Shown here: positions 31,584 to 63,863 of the stretch, one piece after another | Position numbering within the stretch: the stretch's first letter is position 1 | How the letters are laid out: every line of letters starts with the position of its first letter | Assembly (NCBI GenBank): GCA_950295325.1 | Contig: OX485804.1 | Location: 44,876,429-44,940,428, forward strand | Source: Polytrichum commune | Lineage: Eukaryota > Streptophyta > Polytrichopsida > Polytrichales > Polytrichaceae | DNA length: 64,000 nucleotides | Direction of reading: 5' to 3' | Notes under the pieces: generated by a model | Database searches by the model: none | Seen by the model: only the letters and a program-made list of their open reading frames with translations | What the model was told of the DNA's origin: nothing | Translations under genes and position numbers: made by a program

Positions 31584-33821
31584 CTATCTTTGACGCTCCA
31601 GGAAGTCTTTCCTCCGCTTCAGTGACATGTTACTGCCGTCGTCGTTCGGGCTGAAATGTAGTTCCACTTGCGATGGCTCCACCAAACCATGTTTCATTTC
31701 AGCCAACAGGGTTTGTTGTTTCCCCCGGACAATGTGAAAGTCAGCTAGCAGGTGTTTTAGCAAGAAAGTATCGCCTCTAGCAGCCACCATGAGTTCGGTT
31801 GCAAGGTTATGGACAATGGTTTCCATATCCGTAACACTGGCGGTGATGCGAGCGCCAATAGCACCATGCAGACCTGTCGCGGCAGTGCAAGATGGCCCAA
31901 TATCATCACAATCCTCTGGGAAATGTACGACAGAATCCAACATGTTCGCACGACCTCCCTCACATGTGCCTGCAAGAGACCCACAATAACCTGTAATAGT
32001 TCCTTCAGCAAGTTCGGGATGGAGTATCATGAGGACCTTTATCTGATGCTTGCATATGTTGCCCTTAAGTGCCCACACGCAATCACAACAACCCCATTCA
32101 CAGTCCGGGTTGTACACATAATACAATTTGGTTGCGTTATTCATGGGCTTTACCAATGTTGGACCGTCGTTTGCAATGGGGAGGGTGACACAACTGTCAG
32201 GGATTTCCCTAGCTTTGAGCACAACGTTGATAACAAATTGCTCTTGTTTCAAGTTTGGGACGAACCCGTGTTGTTTCCTCATTGCCTGGTACCAGTAATG
32301 GGAGAGAATTTCCCCTGTCAACTTGTATATGACCCAATCCAAGCGATGTCCATGCGCTCTGCCTTTTGATGCACGCAAGGTGGCTTTAAGGTTTGAGTGG
32401 TAGCTCTCAATTGCAGCATTTGTGTTCTGCCTTGCATACGGCAAGTTACGATGGCCAACAATCCACATATGAGTATTGTCTGCCCATTGTTTGTCAAAGT
32501 AAGCCCAGAAATTGCTCACAATGGAGAAGATATCTTTAAGAGCATTCAATTGCCGAATGGCCCAAGGCCCCATTCCATCTCCTCGGGGATATTTTGTGTC
32601 GTACATAATTCGATCCAGTCCCTTGAGCACAACAGCCCGTATAGCGTGGTCTTTGATTTTCGCTACCGCTTGCTTCAACCATGCACGACGAACATGCCAG
32701 AGGCACAAGAACACTTTAACTCCAGGCCACACGGATTGCAACCCTCTAATCTTAGCCTGCGCACAATCTGTAATGAATGGATTCGGCGCCTAGTCAGGTT
32801 GCAGGGACGCCAATTTTTTTGCGAGTGCCTTCATCCATGGCTCAAGATCAGGTTGCTTGGAACTAGAAGTAACAATATACGCCACGAGCACTCCATTCAG
32901 CCAGTCATCAAACACCATCAAGGTGTACAGTGGAAACTGCAAGGGGAAAAAAAAAATGTTACGATTTGGGAGAAACTTGAGGGAAAAAAACCAATAGTGT
33001 TAGAGCAAACCACTTAGCGTGGACGTGGTGTGTAACATGCTGACAGTGGGTCTATGGTAACAACAAATCTTGTTCTCGTTAGTTGCAAATGTGGCGTTAA
33101 TGGAGACGGTTTTTTTGTGCCCGTGTTTTAGCATCATCTCTTCTTGCCAAGATGTTTGGATGCCAATTGTGAATGAAATATTATCACGTGTAATAGCCCC
33201 CCGAACATGTACGCCTGACTCTTTGTAGTAGAACACGAGAAAGGGATGTTCTTGTGTCCACATGTGTACAAATTTTGCATCGTTGTTGTCGCGTTTGTAT
33301 GTTTCTATTGTGAGGCACCCAACAACATTGCGGATGTCTTGCTCAGAAATGAAGAGGTCTTGTGTGAGCTCCTTCCCTCGCTCGCACGCTTCCATGAAGC
33401 GTTTTATGTGTTTTTCCATTATTTGGGAGATAGACAAACCCAGCCGTAAATGACACATGATGAATTCCCGGACGTGCACGGAGAGATGGTTGGAGAATTT
33501 GCTCTTATGGCCAATCTTTGTGGACCCATGGCAAAATATCCCATTTAGGTTCACATGCTTCATTTGATAGTATGTTATTTCTACAACTGAGGGCTCCATG
33601 TACAATTGTTTCACGACAAATTCACACTGGCACCCCCTTCGTTGCCCTGATCCACGCATCCTCGCTGATGTGCGTGGTCCTGTGTGACCTTTTCCGTTTG
33701 GAACATATTTGCCCTTCACGTCGAGCTTTCGTTTCTTCTGGTACATGTCCTTCGTAATCACTGGTATATGCGAGACATTGTCATTTGGCCATATTGACAA
33801 TGATACCTGGTAGTCGGCCAT
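31584..33821 (-). pseudogene. MULE transposase (MURA/FAR1-like), inactivated
   Basis: Two blocks join across a short intron. Block 1 (33821-33045) includes a MULE N-terminal region (basic, HVNLNG, SKFSNHLSVHVREF) and ends with the ATFATNENK stretch preceding the first catalytic region. Block 2 starts at 32936 after a CTTGCAG acceptor with FPLYTLMVFDDWLNGVLVAY. It continues through FITDCAQAK (second Asp), CLWHV, IESYHSNLK (catalytic Glu) and a SWIM zinc finger (CDC then CKH, about 32080-32040). A frame-compatible donor is ACT|GTCAGC (33045/33044), but this junction is uncertain. A TAG codon at 32790-32792, between the FDDW block and the ITDC block, breaks the catalytic core. Upstream, 34565-33960 holds a FVKGEEARIDGPCKFV-like stretch in a frame with further stops (34140-34142 and 34002-34004). 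Confidence 0.8.
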
Positions 33822-55484: not shown

Positions 55485-55770
55485 GTTAGATTATAAGTGT
55501 AGCAACCAATGTTGGACCAGTATTAAGGTGAATGCAAGGGTATTAATAATCAAAGATAATAATGGTATGAAAGAACTTACTCATGGGTATAAAAATTGTA
55601 GTCATATATTGCTATTTGATGGGTATATCAAGATGAAAGAATCTTTGTATACCCAAGTTATTATTTGGATTAATACCATTCTCAACCATATTGATACTAG
55701 GACGATTTACCCAAGTCTGCATGTTCTTACATGGTATATATATCTGAATGGTATCAAGAACAACGATACG
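55485..55770 (-). repeat. Dispersed repeat family F, copy 3, left half (split by insertion)
   Basis: The reverse complement follows the copy at 15940-16240: GATACCATTCAG, TATATACCATGTAAGAAC, TTGAGAATGGTATTAATCC, ATAACTTGGGTATACAAAGA and CTGGTCCAACATTGG. The match stops at the outer end of the left arm at 55771 and resumes at 63241-63345 on the far side of the insertion. Confidence 0.75.
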
Positions 55771-55774
55771 ACCA

Positions 55775-57222
55775 GGGATTCGTGGCACTCATGTATTTTC
55801 ATTAGTGAGAGTTCATTCATCTTTGCAGATGAGATGAATCACTTAAGATACTACCTTACGTCGTCGGCTCCTTGTCTCAAGGGTTTTAAAAAAACCAAGT
55901 TTTAGTAGTTCTAAATTATCCTACTCTAATTCAATACTTAAGGCAATAATACAAAGGGGGTTAGACATAAAAAACAACATGCCTCATATAGATGCAAGTG
56001 AATGCATCATGCGTTGCCAACCTATCATTACTAGTCCGGTAATCTTTAAGAAATTAATATGGGCGGACGTTAAATACCCCCTCATGAACTTTCGGGGGTG
56101 TTAGATTCGGGCTGGGGCAACCTTCTAAAGAAATTTTTGAACCCGACCAAAAATTGTTGCCCATCCCGCCCAACTTTAAAAAAAAAAAATTGCTCTTGCA
56201 TTCTTGAAGGCCACTTGACTTCAAATCCCATATTGAGTGCATTTCACCTTCAAGGTCTAAAATCCAATATATATGTGCACTTCCAATTAGTAAATAAGCA
56301 ATTGATTGGGATTTCATTTCGGAAGTGAAACCATCAATGAAGCACATAATTAACTTGGAGGTCAAAAAAATTACAAAATCCTCATTGACATTGAAGTTAT
56401 AATTTTGTGACTTACCATTTAAAATTATCTTTGCCATTATAATGATAGACTAGTATAAGTATTCATAACATAACCACAATGAAACAATGAAGATAGAATA
56501 TAGAATATACAACAACAAAAAATTTATATAAAAATAAATTTTATTTTTTAGGTAATATAATGAGGTATAAATAAATGATATGTTATTTGGAATTAGACTT
56601 GTGGGACAACATTATGGATGGGGTATACTTAGAAAATCATAAGTTTTTGACTATAACCTATCTGAAATATTGTAATATTTTATCCTCATCACATATTGTA
56701 TTATCTTTAAAATCACATGGTGTATATTAATTATTTTGAAATTAATTTTCACAATAATAATAGTAATTTATTATTATAATTATTGAATTTATTTTTTGAG
56801 TTCACCAATTTACCATAAAGTGATATATATTTTTGACATATTACAAATGTTTGAGCAATCACATCCGTACAAAATAGGTGAATTATGAACCAAAAAATGT
56901 CTATGACAACACATCATAATTATATGTTGCAACGTTGATATCTTGCGATATTTAACAAAATAAGCATGTGGAATTCAAAGCCACATCATGGCCTTGGAAA
57001 AAATTCATGGGAGATTAGAAAATAAGCTTAGAGCATCCAAGGCCACATCATTGCCCCTTGCCAACTAATTGTATTTACAAAATAGCTAGTAGTTCACAAT
57101 AGCTATGAGGGAGGAAATAGGTCTTACATGCCAACTCGGATGCCAACTTACATGCTTCTTGATGGACTCATCCGATTTTTGTTACCGGATGACTTTACTT
57201 GAGTGCCACAAATCCCTAGCCC
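55775..57222 (+). repeat. Left arm of the FRO transposon (1,448 bp)
   Basis: The outer end starts GGGATTCGTGGCACTCATGT. The inner end is GAGTGCCACAAATCCCTAGC, the inverse of nearly the same terminal word, so the arm itself is bounded by short TIRs of about 20 bp. The AT-rich interior contains a 127-codon frame (56437-56054, minus) with no recognised family; the identical frame occurs in the right arm. Comparison by eye shows the arms essentially identical except at the tips. Confidence 0.88.
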
Positions 57223-58938
57223 GGCATCCCAATGCACTACGCTAAATGTCATAATGTAAATATGTTTTCGCATAAAAAAGTTCTGACATTGACAAATTGT
57301 CTTATTATTATTGGCAATTAGTGGACTTAACCCTTTGAGATCTTTAGGCATCTAGTTTGGGTCCTTCGCAAATAGTGTATAGGTGCAAGCACGGTAAAGT
57401 GGACAACTCCTGGTCCTTGCCTAGTGTTCAGTGAAAGTGATTCAAAACTATACATTAACTTTGTACTTTGTGAAGAAAAAAATCATTAGACATTTTTAAA
57501 ACGTATTGATCTACAAAGCCAAGCAAATTATGATGAAAAAAAAAAATTCTAAGGAAAGTCTACATATTTTAGAAGACCGTATAAGTGGTGTACAAGTAGG
57601 TGATATTGAGCAAATGGTTGTCTAAAGTTTGTTCAAAGCACGATAAAATTACATAAAATTGATGGTTTTCCACAAAGTTTTGTGATGATGCCCTCAAGTA
57701 GATAATGAATTCAAGGAACATGAAAGAAAAATCCAACTTCAAAATAGTTAAGGTCATGAAATCTATGTCCAAAACAAGACTCGATCATTTGCTTTTGAGT
57801 TTAATGATAAGTATTGAAGATCTCAACTTGATTTTCTACATTTGAATATTCAACATAACAACAAAGGTCATCATGAAAAGAAATCCAATTTAAACAACGC
57901 TTTGCTACTACTTTTAGGCCTTTGACCAAAAGCATTATGGTTTTAGTCTAATGAAGCATTTTTTTCGTCCACTTTACCATGTTTGCACCCAACACAACAA
58001 CTGTGATAATTTCAAATGTTTGTATTCCGTGTTGAGCGCCAGCCATCACATTTGTGTAGTTTTGTGACTTAGTATACATCATGTTGGCGGTTAGAATCGT
58101 CCAAAACTCATGTATAAATCCAAATATACTTAAATCCTAGTTTTTAGTCATGTAGGGGAATTTTTGGAAAGATGGATGGGGATGCAAATAAGATGATTTT
58201 CGCTCAAAATGTTTTGTGATATTAAGAGATGCCAACAAGTGTATCAACTTTTGGTCAATATCATAGAATACGAAACGAGCTATATTTCTTCAAAATAAAG
58301 AATAAGCATAAATTTGGTGTGCAACCACTGAATTACTTACTTTTGAAACCCAAAAAAATTGATTACACATTGGAGTTCAACGACTTATTTAAAGACATGA
58401 TTAATGAGCATATATATAACACATAACTTTCTTCATCCTTTCTTGTGTAATGTTTACTCCATATACTGTACTCAATTTGATTGATTTTTGCAATTTTATG
58501 CTCCAGCTACAATTGCTTCACATGTCAAACATCACATATGTGATTGTGGAGACATAAACAACACTTCAATCGCATAATTGAACACAAGACTTTTACCTGG
58601 CTTATTGCCTAACGAAACGAACTTTGTGGGTTTTTTCCTTCCGTTTAGAGCATTCTTTATACATCGACCTTGAAGTTGTTGTGAATAACCTGCTTATCTA
58701 GCTTTCCCCTATAAACAAGTGCATTAGCATTATTCGGTTGCACGACTAATAAACCTCAACACAAACTAGTTGTCTACCATGACAAAAGTTCTCATGTGTA
58801 GAATGTGTAAATAATACAAAATGACATATATTGAGAATTTGGCTTAGGAAATATGCATGTGGGATGCATATTTTCACATCCCATATTACAAAAGCCAGAA
58901 CAATAGCACTTTGACTTGCAAAGGCGCATGTTGGTTTC
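57223..58938. other. Non-coding region between left arm and FRO 3' end
   Basis: AT-rich, with no supported gene. It contains the nested TIR element at 57382-57989 and presumably the FRO 3' UTR near 58840-58938. A 65-codon frame at 58229 is unsupported. Confidence 0.5.
57382..57989. mobile_element. Nested TIR element E (608 bp) inside the FRO transposon
   Basis: The left end GGTGCAAGCACGGTAAAGTG then GAC (57382-57404) and the right end GTCCACTTTACCATGTTTGC then ACC (57967-57989) are inverted with 21 of 23 identities. The interior is AT-rich and non-coding. No clear target duplication was seen. Confidence 0.65.
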
Positions 58939-61212
58939 CTATAGAGAAAAACTAACCGAATGATAATTAAAGATTTCGGCTTTCAAAGTGGCTTGCAAAC
59001 CCGACCGCCTTTGACATTCTTTCGCCACAACATGTTGAAGGCCCTCCGGGCCGGAAACTAGAACACCGACATCTTCGTGTCCAAAATCCTTTACAACTTG
59101 ATCAAACTCCCTTGAAAAATCGGGGCGCGAAAACATGTAACCCTCGGCCATATCATACAAAGTTGGATGAGCCCACTCCATGTCATCAACACTAGAAAGT
59201 TCATTTTCATATGAGCCCACAACCCGCGCCGCATGTGCATGATTTTCCATCACTTTTCTCTCCTTGCTTTTGGAATGGGCGGTCCAACACAAAAGTACGG
59301 CGCTCCCGGCGACCACGATGCCCACAAACATGCTCACGAACAAGAGGCTGCCTTGGATCCATTGGAAGTTCGGAATGTTTTGAGGCACCAGATTTATGCC
59401 CTGAAACGTTGCAACCGTCGCACAACTTGTGATCAAAATCATCCAAAACATCCACAAGTTGTCTCCCGTTCCTGTAATCGAGCGAACGCGACTCGTGTTG
59501 GTTAGATTGTCATTGGGACCAGGTGCGGGAATCACATGAATCGCCCCTCCAAGGGTGTTGTCAACGTTGTCATCCACATAAGCTTTGTTGGTTTGGAACC
59601 GCGTCACATACACCTTCACATAGATTCGACATGCACCCGATTCGTAGTCCCTGAAAATCAAACTCGGTGAAACTTGACGGAGGATGTCAAGCTCGGTTTC
59701 GGACCGAACCGACCATATCAACACGATGTTCTTCGGTAGGTGGACTCTTTCTTCGTGAGCTGTGATGCGATATCGGTGCAAAATGTCTTGGATGATGGCC
59801 ATGAATGGCGTGATTCCGATGCCGCCCGCGACGAGCACCAACGTCTTGTAGTTAAGATAGTACTCGGATTCGTCGCTGTACGGACCCTCCACGGCGATCG
59901 GCATGGAAAACGGACACTTTTTCTCAGTGGCCGTATTCGCGATTTCCGTGACGTGTGCAGCGACGCGGGATGTCCACGAGTTTTTCGCAGAGGATGCACC
60001 TGTGACTTTCTTGATGTGAATGGTCATTTCACCGGCACAATCTTGAGCGCTCGACGCCATGCTAATCGGGTGCCATTCAAGATGGGAGACGCTGGGTACC
60101 TTCAAGAACATGAAGCTCAGGGCGTCGTACATTAATGTCGAGGACCTTGGAACCTTGAGCTCGATTATTCCGTCAAAAGACACGCGTGCCCTGGACACTT
60201 GTATCAATTGCCTTGATTGCCAGAACCGCATGAACCGGTCGAGGAAGAAGAGGAAAATGGGGCCCATTGTATACCCAACCGTTCTCACCCCAACATGGTA
60301 CACGAAGCCGACGAAAAACAAAATGTAAAGTTGATGAGAGTAGTAAAAAAAGTTGAAATGACGGCGCCGGATCATCGGCAATGATGTGGCCACCATGTAG
60401 ATGGCGATGAGTAAGGCGACGAGTCCGGGAACCACGACCACTCCCGATGATCCGTTTGGCGGTGTGGTGAAGGAGATCAACCGATACCATGTGTGTGTTT
60501 TCGCGTACACTCCGATGAACGAGCCTCCGTGCGCTAAAATGACCGTGACTAGAAGGTAGCCCACCCACTTGTGGTATTTCACAGCGTGCTCGAATGGGAG
60601 GCCAAGCATGCGTAAAATTGGCGAGTTTCTTGTCACCGGGAGCAAAAGGAGTGACATGAGCACGGCCAAGATCCGGCCCAACATCGTTCCTGCTTGTGCT
60701 GTTTTTGCCACCACTTTGTCCACTCCGGTGGTATTAGAAACCGTGTCAATGGCTTTCGCTTGGGGCACGTACCAAGCGTAGAAAAGCCAAAAAACCAAAA
60801 CCAATGTGCTTATAATTGCGATGAGATCAACTACGGCCATCACCCCAAACACGCGGTTGATAAACACTGGCCGTGTCCACAACATTCTCCACATGCGAAA
60901 AGCTCGAGCGAAAAATTTATCGTTGCTGCTCTTCTTGGCTTTCAGTGATGGCGGAGATTTCTTCGTGAGATGTAAATGCAATGTCCCAAGAAGTGCGAGA
61001 ATTATAATAGGGCACGTGTATAATATGTAAATTCCGACCATGTCGCCGAATTTTTGTGTGTGTTGTGTTACAAGCGTTTCGATTGTCCAACCAAGCATTG
61101 TGGGAGTGAAGAACCACCAAATTATCAAATACATAGATATTGCGAACATCAAAGTGGAAATCACAAGTTTCATCATCCTTCTCATGATGTTTGGATTTAT
61201 TGCAACTGCCAT
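58939..61212 (-). CDS. FRO: Ferric-chelate reductase / FRO-type flavocytochrome, 757 aa, intronless
   Basis: A membrane flavocytochrome that passes electrons from NADPH via FAD and two b-hemes to extracytoplasmic Fe(III) or Cu(II). The frame is uninterrupted and matches FRO length (about 700-750). Hydrophobic segments lie at about 15-37, 57-80, 117-148, 178-193, 217-235, 257-280, 290-312 and a C-terminal pair. Two bis-heme histidine pairs are present: H214/H228 and H293/H306 (H-x13-H and H-x12-H). The FAD motif is HPISMAS (381-387). NADPH contacts are EGPYSDE (442-448), GGIGITPF (463-470) and SGPEGLQ near the C terminus. It ends NYHSVSFSL, as plant FROs do. Arabidopsis FRO genes have several introns, so the intronless form is notable: either a retrocopy or lineage-typical. 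A TATA box lies about 109 bp upstream, inside the transposon. All key residues are present. Confidence 0.93.
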   Translation of the reverse strand: MAVAINPNIMRRMMKLVISTLMFAISMYLIIWWFFTPTMLGWTIETLVTQHTQKFGDMVGIYILYTCPIIILALLGTLHLHLTKKSPPSLKAKKSSNDKFFARAFRMWRMLWTRPVFINRVFGVMAVVDLIAIISTLVLVFWLFYAWYVPQAKAIDTVSNTTGVDKVVAKTAQAGTMLGRILAVLMSLLLLPVTRNSPILRMLGLPFEHAVKYHKWVGYLLVTVILAHGGSFIGVYAKTHTWYRLISFTTPPNGSSGVVVVPGLVALLIAIYMVATSLPMIRRRHFNFFYYSHQLYILFFVGFVYHVGVRTVGYTMGPIFLFFLDRFMRFWQSRQLIQVSRARVSFDGIIELKVPRSSTLMYDALSFMFLKVPSVSHLEWHPISMASSAQDCAGEMTIHIKKVTGASSAKNSWTSRVAAHVTEIANTATEKKCPFSMPIAVEGPYSDESEYYLNYKTLVLVAGGIGITPFMAIIQDILHRYRITAHEERVHLPKNIVLIWSVRSETELDILRQVSPSLIFRDYESGACRIYVKVYVTRFQTNKAYVDDNVDNTLGGAIHVIPAPGPNDNLTNTSRVRSITGTGDNLWMFWMILITSCATVATFQGINLVPQNIPNFQWIQGSLLFVSMFVGIVVAGSAVLLCWTAHSKSKERKVMENHAHAARVVGSYENELSSVDDMEWAHPTLYDMAEGYMFSRPDFSREFDQVVKDFGHEDVGVLVSGPEGLQHVVAKECQRRSGLQATLKAEIFNYHSVSFSL

Positions 61213-61786
61213 CTTGACTCACTGATATCTTCGTTTTCTATATATTTTCACCTTGAGTGTTTTGTAAAACGATAGCATGAGCTTGCAAATTTAATAGGAC
61301 ATTTGAAAATACACACACGCATTTATAGATATATATATCCCAACATTCAAAAGTAAAGTATTGGAAAAAAGTAAAATGAATATTGGCAAAAGTAAGATGA
61401 CTATCAGACAAAGTAAAAATATTGACTAGCTAGAACCTTAAGAACACTATTCACTTTTGCTTTTGGATGATCTGAAGCTTGTTTCGGATTAACTTTTTCT
61501 TTTATTTACATGAAACTTTGCATACAGAAGACCCACTTTATGAGAATGTAATGGAAGAAGGCTTTCATTTTCTTCCATAAAAATTAAAACGATAAAATAT
61601 TACACGAAATAATCTTATTAGTGTAGGTGGAAAATCAATGTGGAAATGATGAGTGTGGGCCACTCCAATTGTCTACTCCAGGTGGGGATTACATGGGCCG
61701 AAGATTTGAGGTTTCTCCCTAAGTCTTCTTGGAGACTACCCACCAACACCTTATGTGTTAATGTGTAGTTATAATGAGCTTATATT
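61213..61786 (-). promoter_or_regulatory. FRO promoter region within the transposon
   Basis: On the minus strand CTATAAATG (TATAAAT, 61321-61327) lies about 109 bp before the ATG at 61212, giving a plausible 5' UTR of about 80 bases. A second A/T-rich TATATA lies at about 61234-61245 but is very close to the ATG. No iron-regulatory motif was recognised by eye. The region ends at the inner tip of the right arm. Confidence 0.5.
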
Positions 61787-63234
61787 GGGCCGGGGATTCG
61801 TGGCACTCAAGTAAAGTCATCCGGTAACAAAAATCGGATGAGTCCATCAAGAAGCATGTAAGTTGGCATCCGAGTTGGCATGTAAGACCTATTTCCTCCC
61901 TCATAGCTATTGTGAACTACTAGCTATTTTGTAAATACAATTAGTTGGCAAGGGGCAATGATGTGGCCTTGGATGCTCTAAGCTTATTTTCTAATCTCCC
62001 ATGAATTTTTTCCAAGGCCATGATGTGGCTTTGAATTCCACATGCTTATTTTGTTAAATATCGCAAGATATCAACGTTGCAACATATAATTATGATGTGT
62101 TGTCATAGACATTTTTTGGTTCATAATTCACCTATTTTGTACGGATGTGATTGCTCAAACATTTGTAATATGTCAAAAATATATATCACTTTATGGTAAA
62201 TTGGTGAACTCAAAAAATAAATTCAATAATTATAATAATAAATTACTATTATTATTGTGAAAATTAATTTCAAAATAATTAATATACACCATGTGATTTT
62301 AAAGATAATACAATATGTGATGAGGATAAAATATTACAATATTTCAGATAGGTTATAGTCAAAAACTTATGATTTTCTAAGTATACCCCATCCATAATGT
62401 TGTCCCACAAGTCTAATTCCAAATAACATATCATTTATTTATACCTCATTATATTACCTAAAAAATAAAATTTATTTTTATATAAATTTTTTGTTGTTGT
62501 ATATTCTATATTCTATCTTCATTGTTTCATTGTGGTTATGTTATGAATACTTATACTAGTCTATCATTATAATGGCAAAGATAATTTTAAATGGTAAGTC
62601 ACAAAATTATAACTTCAATGTCAATGAGGATTTTGTAATTTTTTTGACCTCCAAGTTAATTATGTGCTTCATTGATGGTTTCACTTCCGAAATGAAATCC
62701 CAATCAATTGCTTATTTACTAATTGGAAGTGCACATATATATTGGATTTTAGACCTTGAAGGTGAAATGCACTCAATATGGGATTTGAAGTCAAGTGGCC
62801 TTCAAGAATGCAAGAGCAATTTTTTTTTTTTAAAGTTGGGCGGGATGGGCAACAATTTTTGGTCGGGTTCAAAAATTTCTTTAGAAGGTTGCCCCAGCCC
62901 GAATCTAACACCCCCGAAAGTTCATGAGGGGGTATTTAACGTCCGCCCATATTAATTTCTTAAAGATTACCGGACTAGTAATGATAGGTTGGCAACGCAT
63001 GATGCATTCACTTGCATCTATATGAGGCATGTTGTTTTTTATGTCTAACCCCCTTTGTATTATTGCCTTAAGTATTGAATTAGAGTAGGATAATTTAGAA
63101 CTACTAAAACTTGGTTTTTTTAAAACCCTTGAGACAAGGAGCCGACGACGTAAGGTAGTATCTTAAGTGATTCATCTCATCTGCAAAGATGAATGAACTC
63201 TCACTAATGAAAATACATGAGTGCCACGAATCCC
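61787..63234 (-). repeat. Right arm of the FRO transposon (1,448 bp)
   Basis: It is the inverse of the left arm. The inner tip reads GGGCCGGGGATTCGTGGCAC; the outer tip is its inverse GTGCCACGAATCCCCGGCCC. The tips of this arm match each other better than those of the left arm, which have a few substitutions. The 127-codon frame (62572-62955, plus) is residue-for-residue the same as in the left arm. Confidence 0.88.
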
Positions 63235-63240
63235 CGGCCC

Positions 63241-63345
63241 AACAATACCATCAAATAGCCATACCGAACTGGTATCAAAAAAAGGTGAAATACTCATTGT
63301 AGATACCCAAATGGTATCATAAAAAGATGATATCAAGACCAGTGC
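63241..63345 (-). repeat. Dispersed repeat family F, copy 3, right half (split by insertion)
   Basis: The reverse complement matches 15885-15945: GATACCATTTGGGTATCTAC, AATGAGTATTTCACCTTTTT, TTGATACC and TTTGATGGTATTG. It continues into the left half at 55770 when the intervening block is removed. Confidence 0.7.
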
Positions 63346-63863
63346 TGGTAGGAACCATGACTAGGATATGCACACCTTTGGTATGTCCTGCATTGCTTGT
63401 CAGAGTAAATACATCGAGCAAAATCTTTTCCTTATCATACTTTCTTGGATGTGATGACTTGCAAACATTCTTGCACTTTCCCTTTCACATCAATCTCAGA
63501 TACAGAAAGTCTGCACCAAAATATATTAAACATGATGAGCCCTTTCATCTGGAAATGCTGATTCCTTGATAGGGTCAAATGTGAAGATCAATAAATCCCG
63601 CATCATAAAATTACAGTTTGTACAATACAGAGAAGGTGACTTCTACGCTTTCAAGAATCATCTAATGTGGACAAAATGCCGCTCCAAATTCTCCGGTAAA
63701 TGATAAATCCATGCGAATGAGCATGATCTGATGTTCATCAAAAGCGAACCTTAGCAAGGTTTGTTGCTGCTCACTAAAAAGAAAGCAGTTGTGAAAATTC
63801 TAAGGGCTAGGCACAAATTTTGTGTATTGAGACAAGACACATTAAGATTACCCTTGACCCACT
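63346..63863. other. Probable 3' region of the partial gene at the window edge
   Basis: No independent gene was recognised. The 80-codon plus-strand frame at 63327 has no motif. It may be the 3' UTR or 3' flank of the minus-strand gene that follows. Confidence 0.4.

Follow-up and report, generated by a model that had tools for sequence, protein, structure and literature searches.

A ferric reductase gene between two complete Mutator-like elements: a probable composite transposon of the moss Polytrichum commune

In bacterial composite transposons such as Tn10, two complete elements in inverted orientation carry a gene between them, and the outer ends of the pair are used. The maize element Ac belongs to the hAT superfamily and has an 8-bp target-site duplication. 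Maize Ac macrotransposons excise and reinsert (excerpt of PMC9910405). The cargo of Pack-MULEs, which are Mutator-like elements (MULEs) carrying host sequence, consists mostly of gene fragments that are usually non-functional (excerpt of PMC13317346). An origin by template switching has been proposed for the multicopy Pack-TIRs of animals (excerpt of PMC8277862), and for fungal Starships, the cargo searched for includes a ferric reductase (excerpt of PMC12134995). Here, we describe a 7.47-kb unit of the moss Polytrichum commune in which two inverted arms flank an intronless gene for a FRO-type ferric reductase. The unit occupies positions 55770–63239 of a 64,000-nucleotide stretch (assembly GCA_950295325.1, contig OX485804.1, positions 44,876,429–44,940,428 of the forward strand), which is referred to as the window. 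The genome searched comprises 408 Mb in 64 contigs, and other loci are named by contig (C1, C2, and so on) and position in megabases. Our literature search found no paper joining a Pack-MULE with a ferric reductase and, among the titles listed, none that concerns a mobile FRO gene, which does not prove absence from print.

The window unit combines features of these known systems. It resembles Tn10-like composites in its paired inverted elements and the use of their outer ends; however, it is eukaryotic and its arms are non-autonomous. With Pack-MULEs, it has in common ends of the Mutator type, a 9-bp duplication, host-derived cargo, and the lack of a transposase, but its cargo is a whole gene with the upstream region instead of a fragment, and its arms are complete elements (compared with excerpts of PMC13317346 and PMC3310237). 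MULEs with multiple long terminal inverted repeats (TIRs), mostly from tomato and Arabidopsis, likewise have extra internal termini, and some of their families have been amplified. As described in the excerpt of PMC3310237, a tandem arrangement predominates among the extra TIRs, and neither of the two amplified families, approximately 1.3–1.4 kb long, holds a whole gene, whereas the window unit consists of a 4.6-kb segment enclosed by two whole elements in inverted orientation. In Ac macrotransposons, two elements mobilize the intervening DNA through their termini, and copies can increase in number (excerpt of PMC9910405); by contrast, the window unit is of the Mutator type and has spread naturally over five chromosomes. 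Starships are a mobile family with reported ferric reductase cargo, but they are giant fungal tyrosine-recombinase elements (excerpt of PMC12134995).

We consider it quite probable that the locus, taken as a whole, is a composite Mutator-like transposon. In this reading, two complete 1.45-kb non-autonomous MULE copies would have come to flank the intronless FRO gene in inverted orientation, and a MULE transposase acting in trans would then have used the two outer ends. The arm–FRO–arm structure would have moved as one 7.47-kb unit with one 9-bp duplication, the footprint of which is present at the window copy. The package would then have multiplied, its arm-bearing copies now numbering at least eight and lying on five chromosomes, and the substitution pattern suggests that some of the encoded reductases may have served the plant once they had been copied.

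Mechanical detection of inverted repeats gave a pair at 55772–57222 and 61787–63237 (1451 nt), and refinement by the terminal GGCC motif set the limits of the inverted arms at 55770–57221 (minus strand) and 61788–63239 (plus strand), 1452 bp each. The left arm has the outer end GACCAGGG and the inner end CTAGCC; the right arm runs from GGCCGGGG to CCCCGGCC. The arms differ from each other at five bases (99.66% identity, coordinate sum 119009), none of them farther than 15 bp from an arm end, and they share one uninterrupted run of 1435 identical bases. Relatives of the arms that are 86–90% identical to the window arm occur as single elements genome-wide, and the terminal sequence of the arm occurs 1140 times (578 + 562) at no more than two mismatches, compared with zero for a reversed control. 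Two further arms (93–94%) are located at C7:38.81M and C7:37.28M. Each arm is a complete Mutator-like element with both termini present. The alternative that the arm is a bare TIR was rejected, since the family occurs as solo elements with both ends.

An earlier note on the window had proposed a composite or Pack-MULE-type transposon carrying a full FRO gene and its upstream region. This is supported, and since both arms are complete elements in their own right, a composite fits better than an ordinary Pack-MULE, in which gap repair or template switching would have brought a copy of the FRO gene into a long-TIR MULE and the arms would have come to look like complete elements only secondarily. 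Such an origin is unlikely. MULEs and Pack-MULEs with long, multiple TIRs are on record (excerpt of PMC3310237), the armless FRO copy at C6:31.11M could be the donor, and outside the window the arms of one unit differ from each other about as much as arms of different units do. However, each arm has both termini, the solo relatives have 9-bp duplications of their own, and all 12 FRO arms point the same end of the solo element outwards, whereas a MULE would have its left end on one side and its right end on the other.

The 9-mers directly outside the unit, CAACGATAC (55761–55769) and CAACAATAC (63240–63248), are identical at eight of nine positions, for which the probability by chance in a fixed register is about 1 in 10,000. 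No 9-bp duplication surrounds either window arm alone. The best own-duplication match of FRO-flanking arms in strict register is 3/9 among the nine tested, the other three of the 12 being broken. By contrast, 15 of 19 solo arms match at seven or more positions (9/9 in ten, 8/9 in four, and 7/9 in one), compared with none of the nine FRO arms; one additional solo arm matches at 6/9, and three fail with 1, 1, and 4 (two of the 21 solo arms were left out because their alignments were shorter than 1350 bases). The insertion site lies in a short repeat of high copy number (55504–55769 and 63240–63350). Matches to the left and right flanks of the unit lie side by side at four loci (C2:22.09M, C2:67.63M, C1:53.62M, and C3:14.55M, with 40 candidates scored per flank search). 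The joined flanks align straight through the paralogous empty site at C2:22.09M, with the mismatches of a diverged repeat, the 9-mer included.

Insertion of the window unit as one piece, with the outer ends used together, is supported because a single duplication surrounds the whole unit, none surrounds each arm, and a related repeat reads across the insertion point. Independent insertion of each arm was rejected on the duplication test (8/9 for the whole unit, at most 3/9 for the nine FRO arms tested). The arm family, with its 1140 termini, is common enough for two unrelated solo insertions to flank a resident FRO gene by chance without any movement of a unit; however, this coincidence is scarcely credible in view of the missing arm-specific duplications, the one whole-unit duplication, the empty sites, and the same junctions at eight loci. 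The single transposable unit of Mutator type put forward in the earlier note is corroborated by the whole-unit duplication, the paralogous empty site, further arm–FRO–arm copies, and an element at C1:11.70M that has a MULE domain, matching ends, and a perfect 9-bp duplication. The note had also raised the case of arms each with its own duplication, which was found for none of the nine FRO arms.

The FRO segment is present in at least 12 copies, the window included; all copy counts come from queries with the protein and with the inner segment and are lower bounds. Four copies have both arms, some of them broken (window, C5:35.98M, C1:15.40M, and C2:48.87M), four have one arm (C3:43.42M, C5:6.60M, C3:18.98M, and C6:44.12M), and four have no arm in the DNA examined (C6:31.11M, C5:27.28M, C1:29.27M, and C6:16.63M, the last about 82% identical). 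At least eight arm-bearing copies are thus distributed over five chromosomes. Three extra places (C6:33.39M, C6:31.12M, and C5:27.29M) match only the first 600–800 bases of the segment, without FRO. Each of the 12 arm/FRO junctions at the eight loci is at one of the same two positions, allowing for a few bases trimmed from the alignments. Because the junctions recur at seven loci other than the window, the arrangement is not due to chance; the genome search for arms and arm–FRO–arm units that the earlier note had proposed yielded further units. Full-length frames of 757–761 residues are retained in five copies, four of which bear arms: the window, C5:35.98M (the frame of which starts with ATA, not ATG), C3:43.42M, C1:15.40M, and the armless C5:27.28M. 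The last copy (C5:27284525–27295460) has sequence beyond FRO in common with C6:31.11M, and FRO may consequently have moved by a second route.

Two arm insertions flanking FRO in a locus like C6:31.11M, followed by joint movement, would fit the sequences at the inner junctions. The armless C6:31.11M holds both 9-mers that abut the arms of the units, with non-arm DNA beyond them. The 9-mer beside the right arm, CTTATATTG (61779–61787), is identical there (9/9) and directly followed by non-arm DNA, and the one beside the left arm, CGGCATCCC (57222–57230), is present as AGGTATCCC (7/9) with non-arm DNA outside. These 9-mers are presumed to be the target sites of the original insertions of the arms. 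The 82% relative C6:16.63M remains similar to C6:31.11M for approximately 85 bases beyond the junction on the right, as a locus predating the arms should. Rooting a tree at C6:16.63M places two armless copies, C6:31.11M and C5:27.28M, outside the arm-bearing group with weak support (56–62%) and puts the armless fragment C1:29.27M among the arm-bearing copies. The armless C6 copy (C6:31111449–31127442) is located inside an inverted duplication of approximately 3.4 kb per side, with pieces 85–94% alike, and the long matches of its left flank are only on C6 (two short internal repeats aside, 40 candidates scored). Its setting is therefore more likely a segmental duplication, and a second long-armed transposon at this locus was disfavored.

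The arms of one unit are 95.07% identical at C1:15.40M and 95.69% at C5:35.98M, about as similar as arms of different units. The value for C2:48.87M, which has broken arms, is slightly above those between units (96.74%), and the 99.66% of the window is exceptional. A local hop or arm–arm conversion before the spread would explain the pattern of arm likeness, and the window arms have been homogenized or inserted more recently. The five arm differences and the single difference in the duplication are all transitions, which fits methylation-driven change at the ends. However, the interior contains 18 CpG sites, none of which differs, which would rather favor conversion over recent insertion as the cause of the near-identity of the arms.

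The transposase acting on the arms may be represented at C1:11.70M, which likely marks their helper family. This element is 11,544 bp long, has a 36-bp perfect TIR of arm-end sequence and the perfect 9-bp duplication GCCGTATCA on both sides, and contains a match to the MULE transposase domain PF10551 (40.5 bits). Its ends are similar to those of the arm (83% over 263, 75% over 652, and 79% over 114 bases), and because of these common ends, the arm looks like an internally deleted MULE derivative. On C1, 3 of 30 PF10551 matches lie between converging perfect termini no more than 30 kb apart, a limit chosen after the lists had been seen, whereas 0.026 are expected (P = 2.6e-6); four of the seven converging perfect-end pairs found on C1 have no PF10551 match. 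Two back-to-back pairs of converging MULE ends, with a PF10551 match in each, are present at C1:27660241–27700409. Elsewhere in the window, PF10551 matches 32691–32939 on the minus strand (36.7 bits) in a 471-residue frame with one TAG.

No PF10551 match falls inside the window unit in the genome-wide list (142 matches, 150 of 271 candidates scored), the FRO frame being the sole frame of the unit scanned against Pfam. The two other ATG frames of at least 90 residues between the arms both overlap FRO, which agrees with the absence of a transposase stated in the earlier note. The unit has host-gene sequence between MULE termini, as in Pack-MULEs. It has a 9-bp duplication (8/9 at the window, perfect in 10 of 19 solo elements and at C1:11.70M) and ends in common with a MULE-domain element, as in Mutator elements. 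As in composite transposons and macrotransposons, two complete elements bracket the cargo, and their outer ends were used together at the window copy.

Several observations weigh against a composite that moved as one unit with the help of this MULE family. When the register is allowed to slide by three bases, FRO arms reach up to 6/9, like the failing solo arms. At the C2:22.09M empty site, the 9-mer is present only as CAAAAACAC (6/9 by eye), although this form and the 8/9 duplication are as expected for a repeat approximately 80–85% alike. Only the window unit and C1:15.40M have both outer ends intact, and the flanks of the latter, TTGGAATGT and AGTCTATGT, match at 4/9 by eye. No locus was found with both arms at their original site. 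In a weakly supported arm tree, left and right arms are not cleanly separated by side; two independent solo insertions thus need later homogenization or a local hop. The PF10551 stretch of C1:11.70M holds one stop, and the four open frames of that element, scanned alone, gave no transposase family. Finally, the intact frame at C5:27.28M has no arm in the DNA examined.

The frame between the arms (58939–61212, minus strand) is stop-free, has 757 codons, and matches Ferric_reduct, FAD_binding_8, and NAD_binding_6 of Pfam above cut-off. Four histidines form two pairs at heme-ligand spacing (214/228 and 293/306), and the sequence includes HPIS at 381 and GGIGITPF at 463; we take these to be the His, FAD, and NAD motifs that were to be expected. 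A histidine pair of cytochrome b-245, presumably its heme ligands, aligns with H293 and H306. The upstream region (61213–61787, minus strand) travels with FRO, with whole or partial matches in 9 of the 11 other copies, and contains TATAAA 115 bases before the ATG. The window frame appears to encode an intact FRO-type ferric reductase. Both this frame with its TATA box and the pair of inverted arms with a constant coordinate sum had been described in the earlier note and are borne out. A nested passenger repeat of approximately 610 bp (57382–57991) lies between the left arm and FRO; 23 places match only that stretch.

A genome search with NAD_binding_6 gave 17 matches, corresponding to six other FRO-like loci, nine copies of the mobile segment, and two matches at C2:31.35M. 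The six resident loci (C5:13.10M, C2:3.47M, C4:29.68M, C5:20.19M, C3:41.75M, and C5:20.23M) all match the FRO protein too. The nearest, C5:13.10M (C5:13098700–13102500), is 63–67% identical in protein sequence and matches in three blocks, hence with two apparent introns. The intronless state of the mobile FRO suggests by comparison that it is likely an old retrocopy.

Pairwise dN/dS among the five full frames is 0.17–0.28 (NG86) or 0.22–0.39 (YN00). To cover the time after the copies had separated, changes unique to a single copy were counted in 11 copies, without C6:16.63M, and read in the window frame. In the five intact copies, 63 of these changes are replacements, 74 are silent, and none is a stop, compared with 118, 84, and 4 in the six damaged copies (121, 84, and 4 in the context analysis, in which a few changes are classed differently). 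The replacement/silent ratio expected from noncoding changes is 2.0, or 1.9 with CG/CHG context, for which some rates come from few sites. The resulting omega of the intact copies is 0.42–0.45 (p = 5e-7 to 3e-6), and that of the window copy is 0.23 (9 replacement and 21 silent changes, p = 9e-5). Outside CG/CHG sites, the intact copies retain 30/31 changes and an omega of 0.43 (p = 9e-4).

It is possible, but doubtful, that the unit is mobile while its FRO gene is a passenger in decay and owes its low replacement rate to a constrained master copy or mutation bias. Seven of the 12 copies are shortened, disrupted, or without a full frame, and the omega of the damaged copies is also below 1 (0.70–0.77, p = 0.008 to 0.04; outside CG/CHG sites 60/37, omega 0.72, p = 0.08). 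This tells against use of the reductases, because part of the low ratio of the intact copies may be bias or older constraint. However, the ratio is lower in intact than in damaged copies (Fisher p = 0.027), and the low values outside CG/CHG sites and in the window copy also oppose a dying passenger. The evidence for selection on the intact copies is good but not final, since these were chosen for their lack of stops and the damaged copies indicate some bias or older constraint. The pattern suggests that, following their duplication, some of the encoded reductases may have been of use to the plant.

In the proposed composite, a whole gene with its upstream region lies between two complete elements and is found on five chromosomes, with a selection signal in the intact copies, in contrast to the fragments that are usually captured. 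There is about an even chance that the unit is a plant counterpart of the bacterial composite transposon, in which an iron-uptake gene serves as a mobile cassette, its copies remain under selection after landing, and its dosage is set by transposition. The mobile FRO may have a functional effect on iron uptake. The mobile full-length frames (five, four of them arm-bearing) nearly equal in number the resident FRO-like loci seen (six, possibly incomplete). Therefore, the case offers a test of whether the dosage of a nutrient-uptake gene is governed by transposition.

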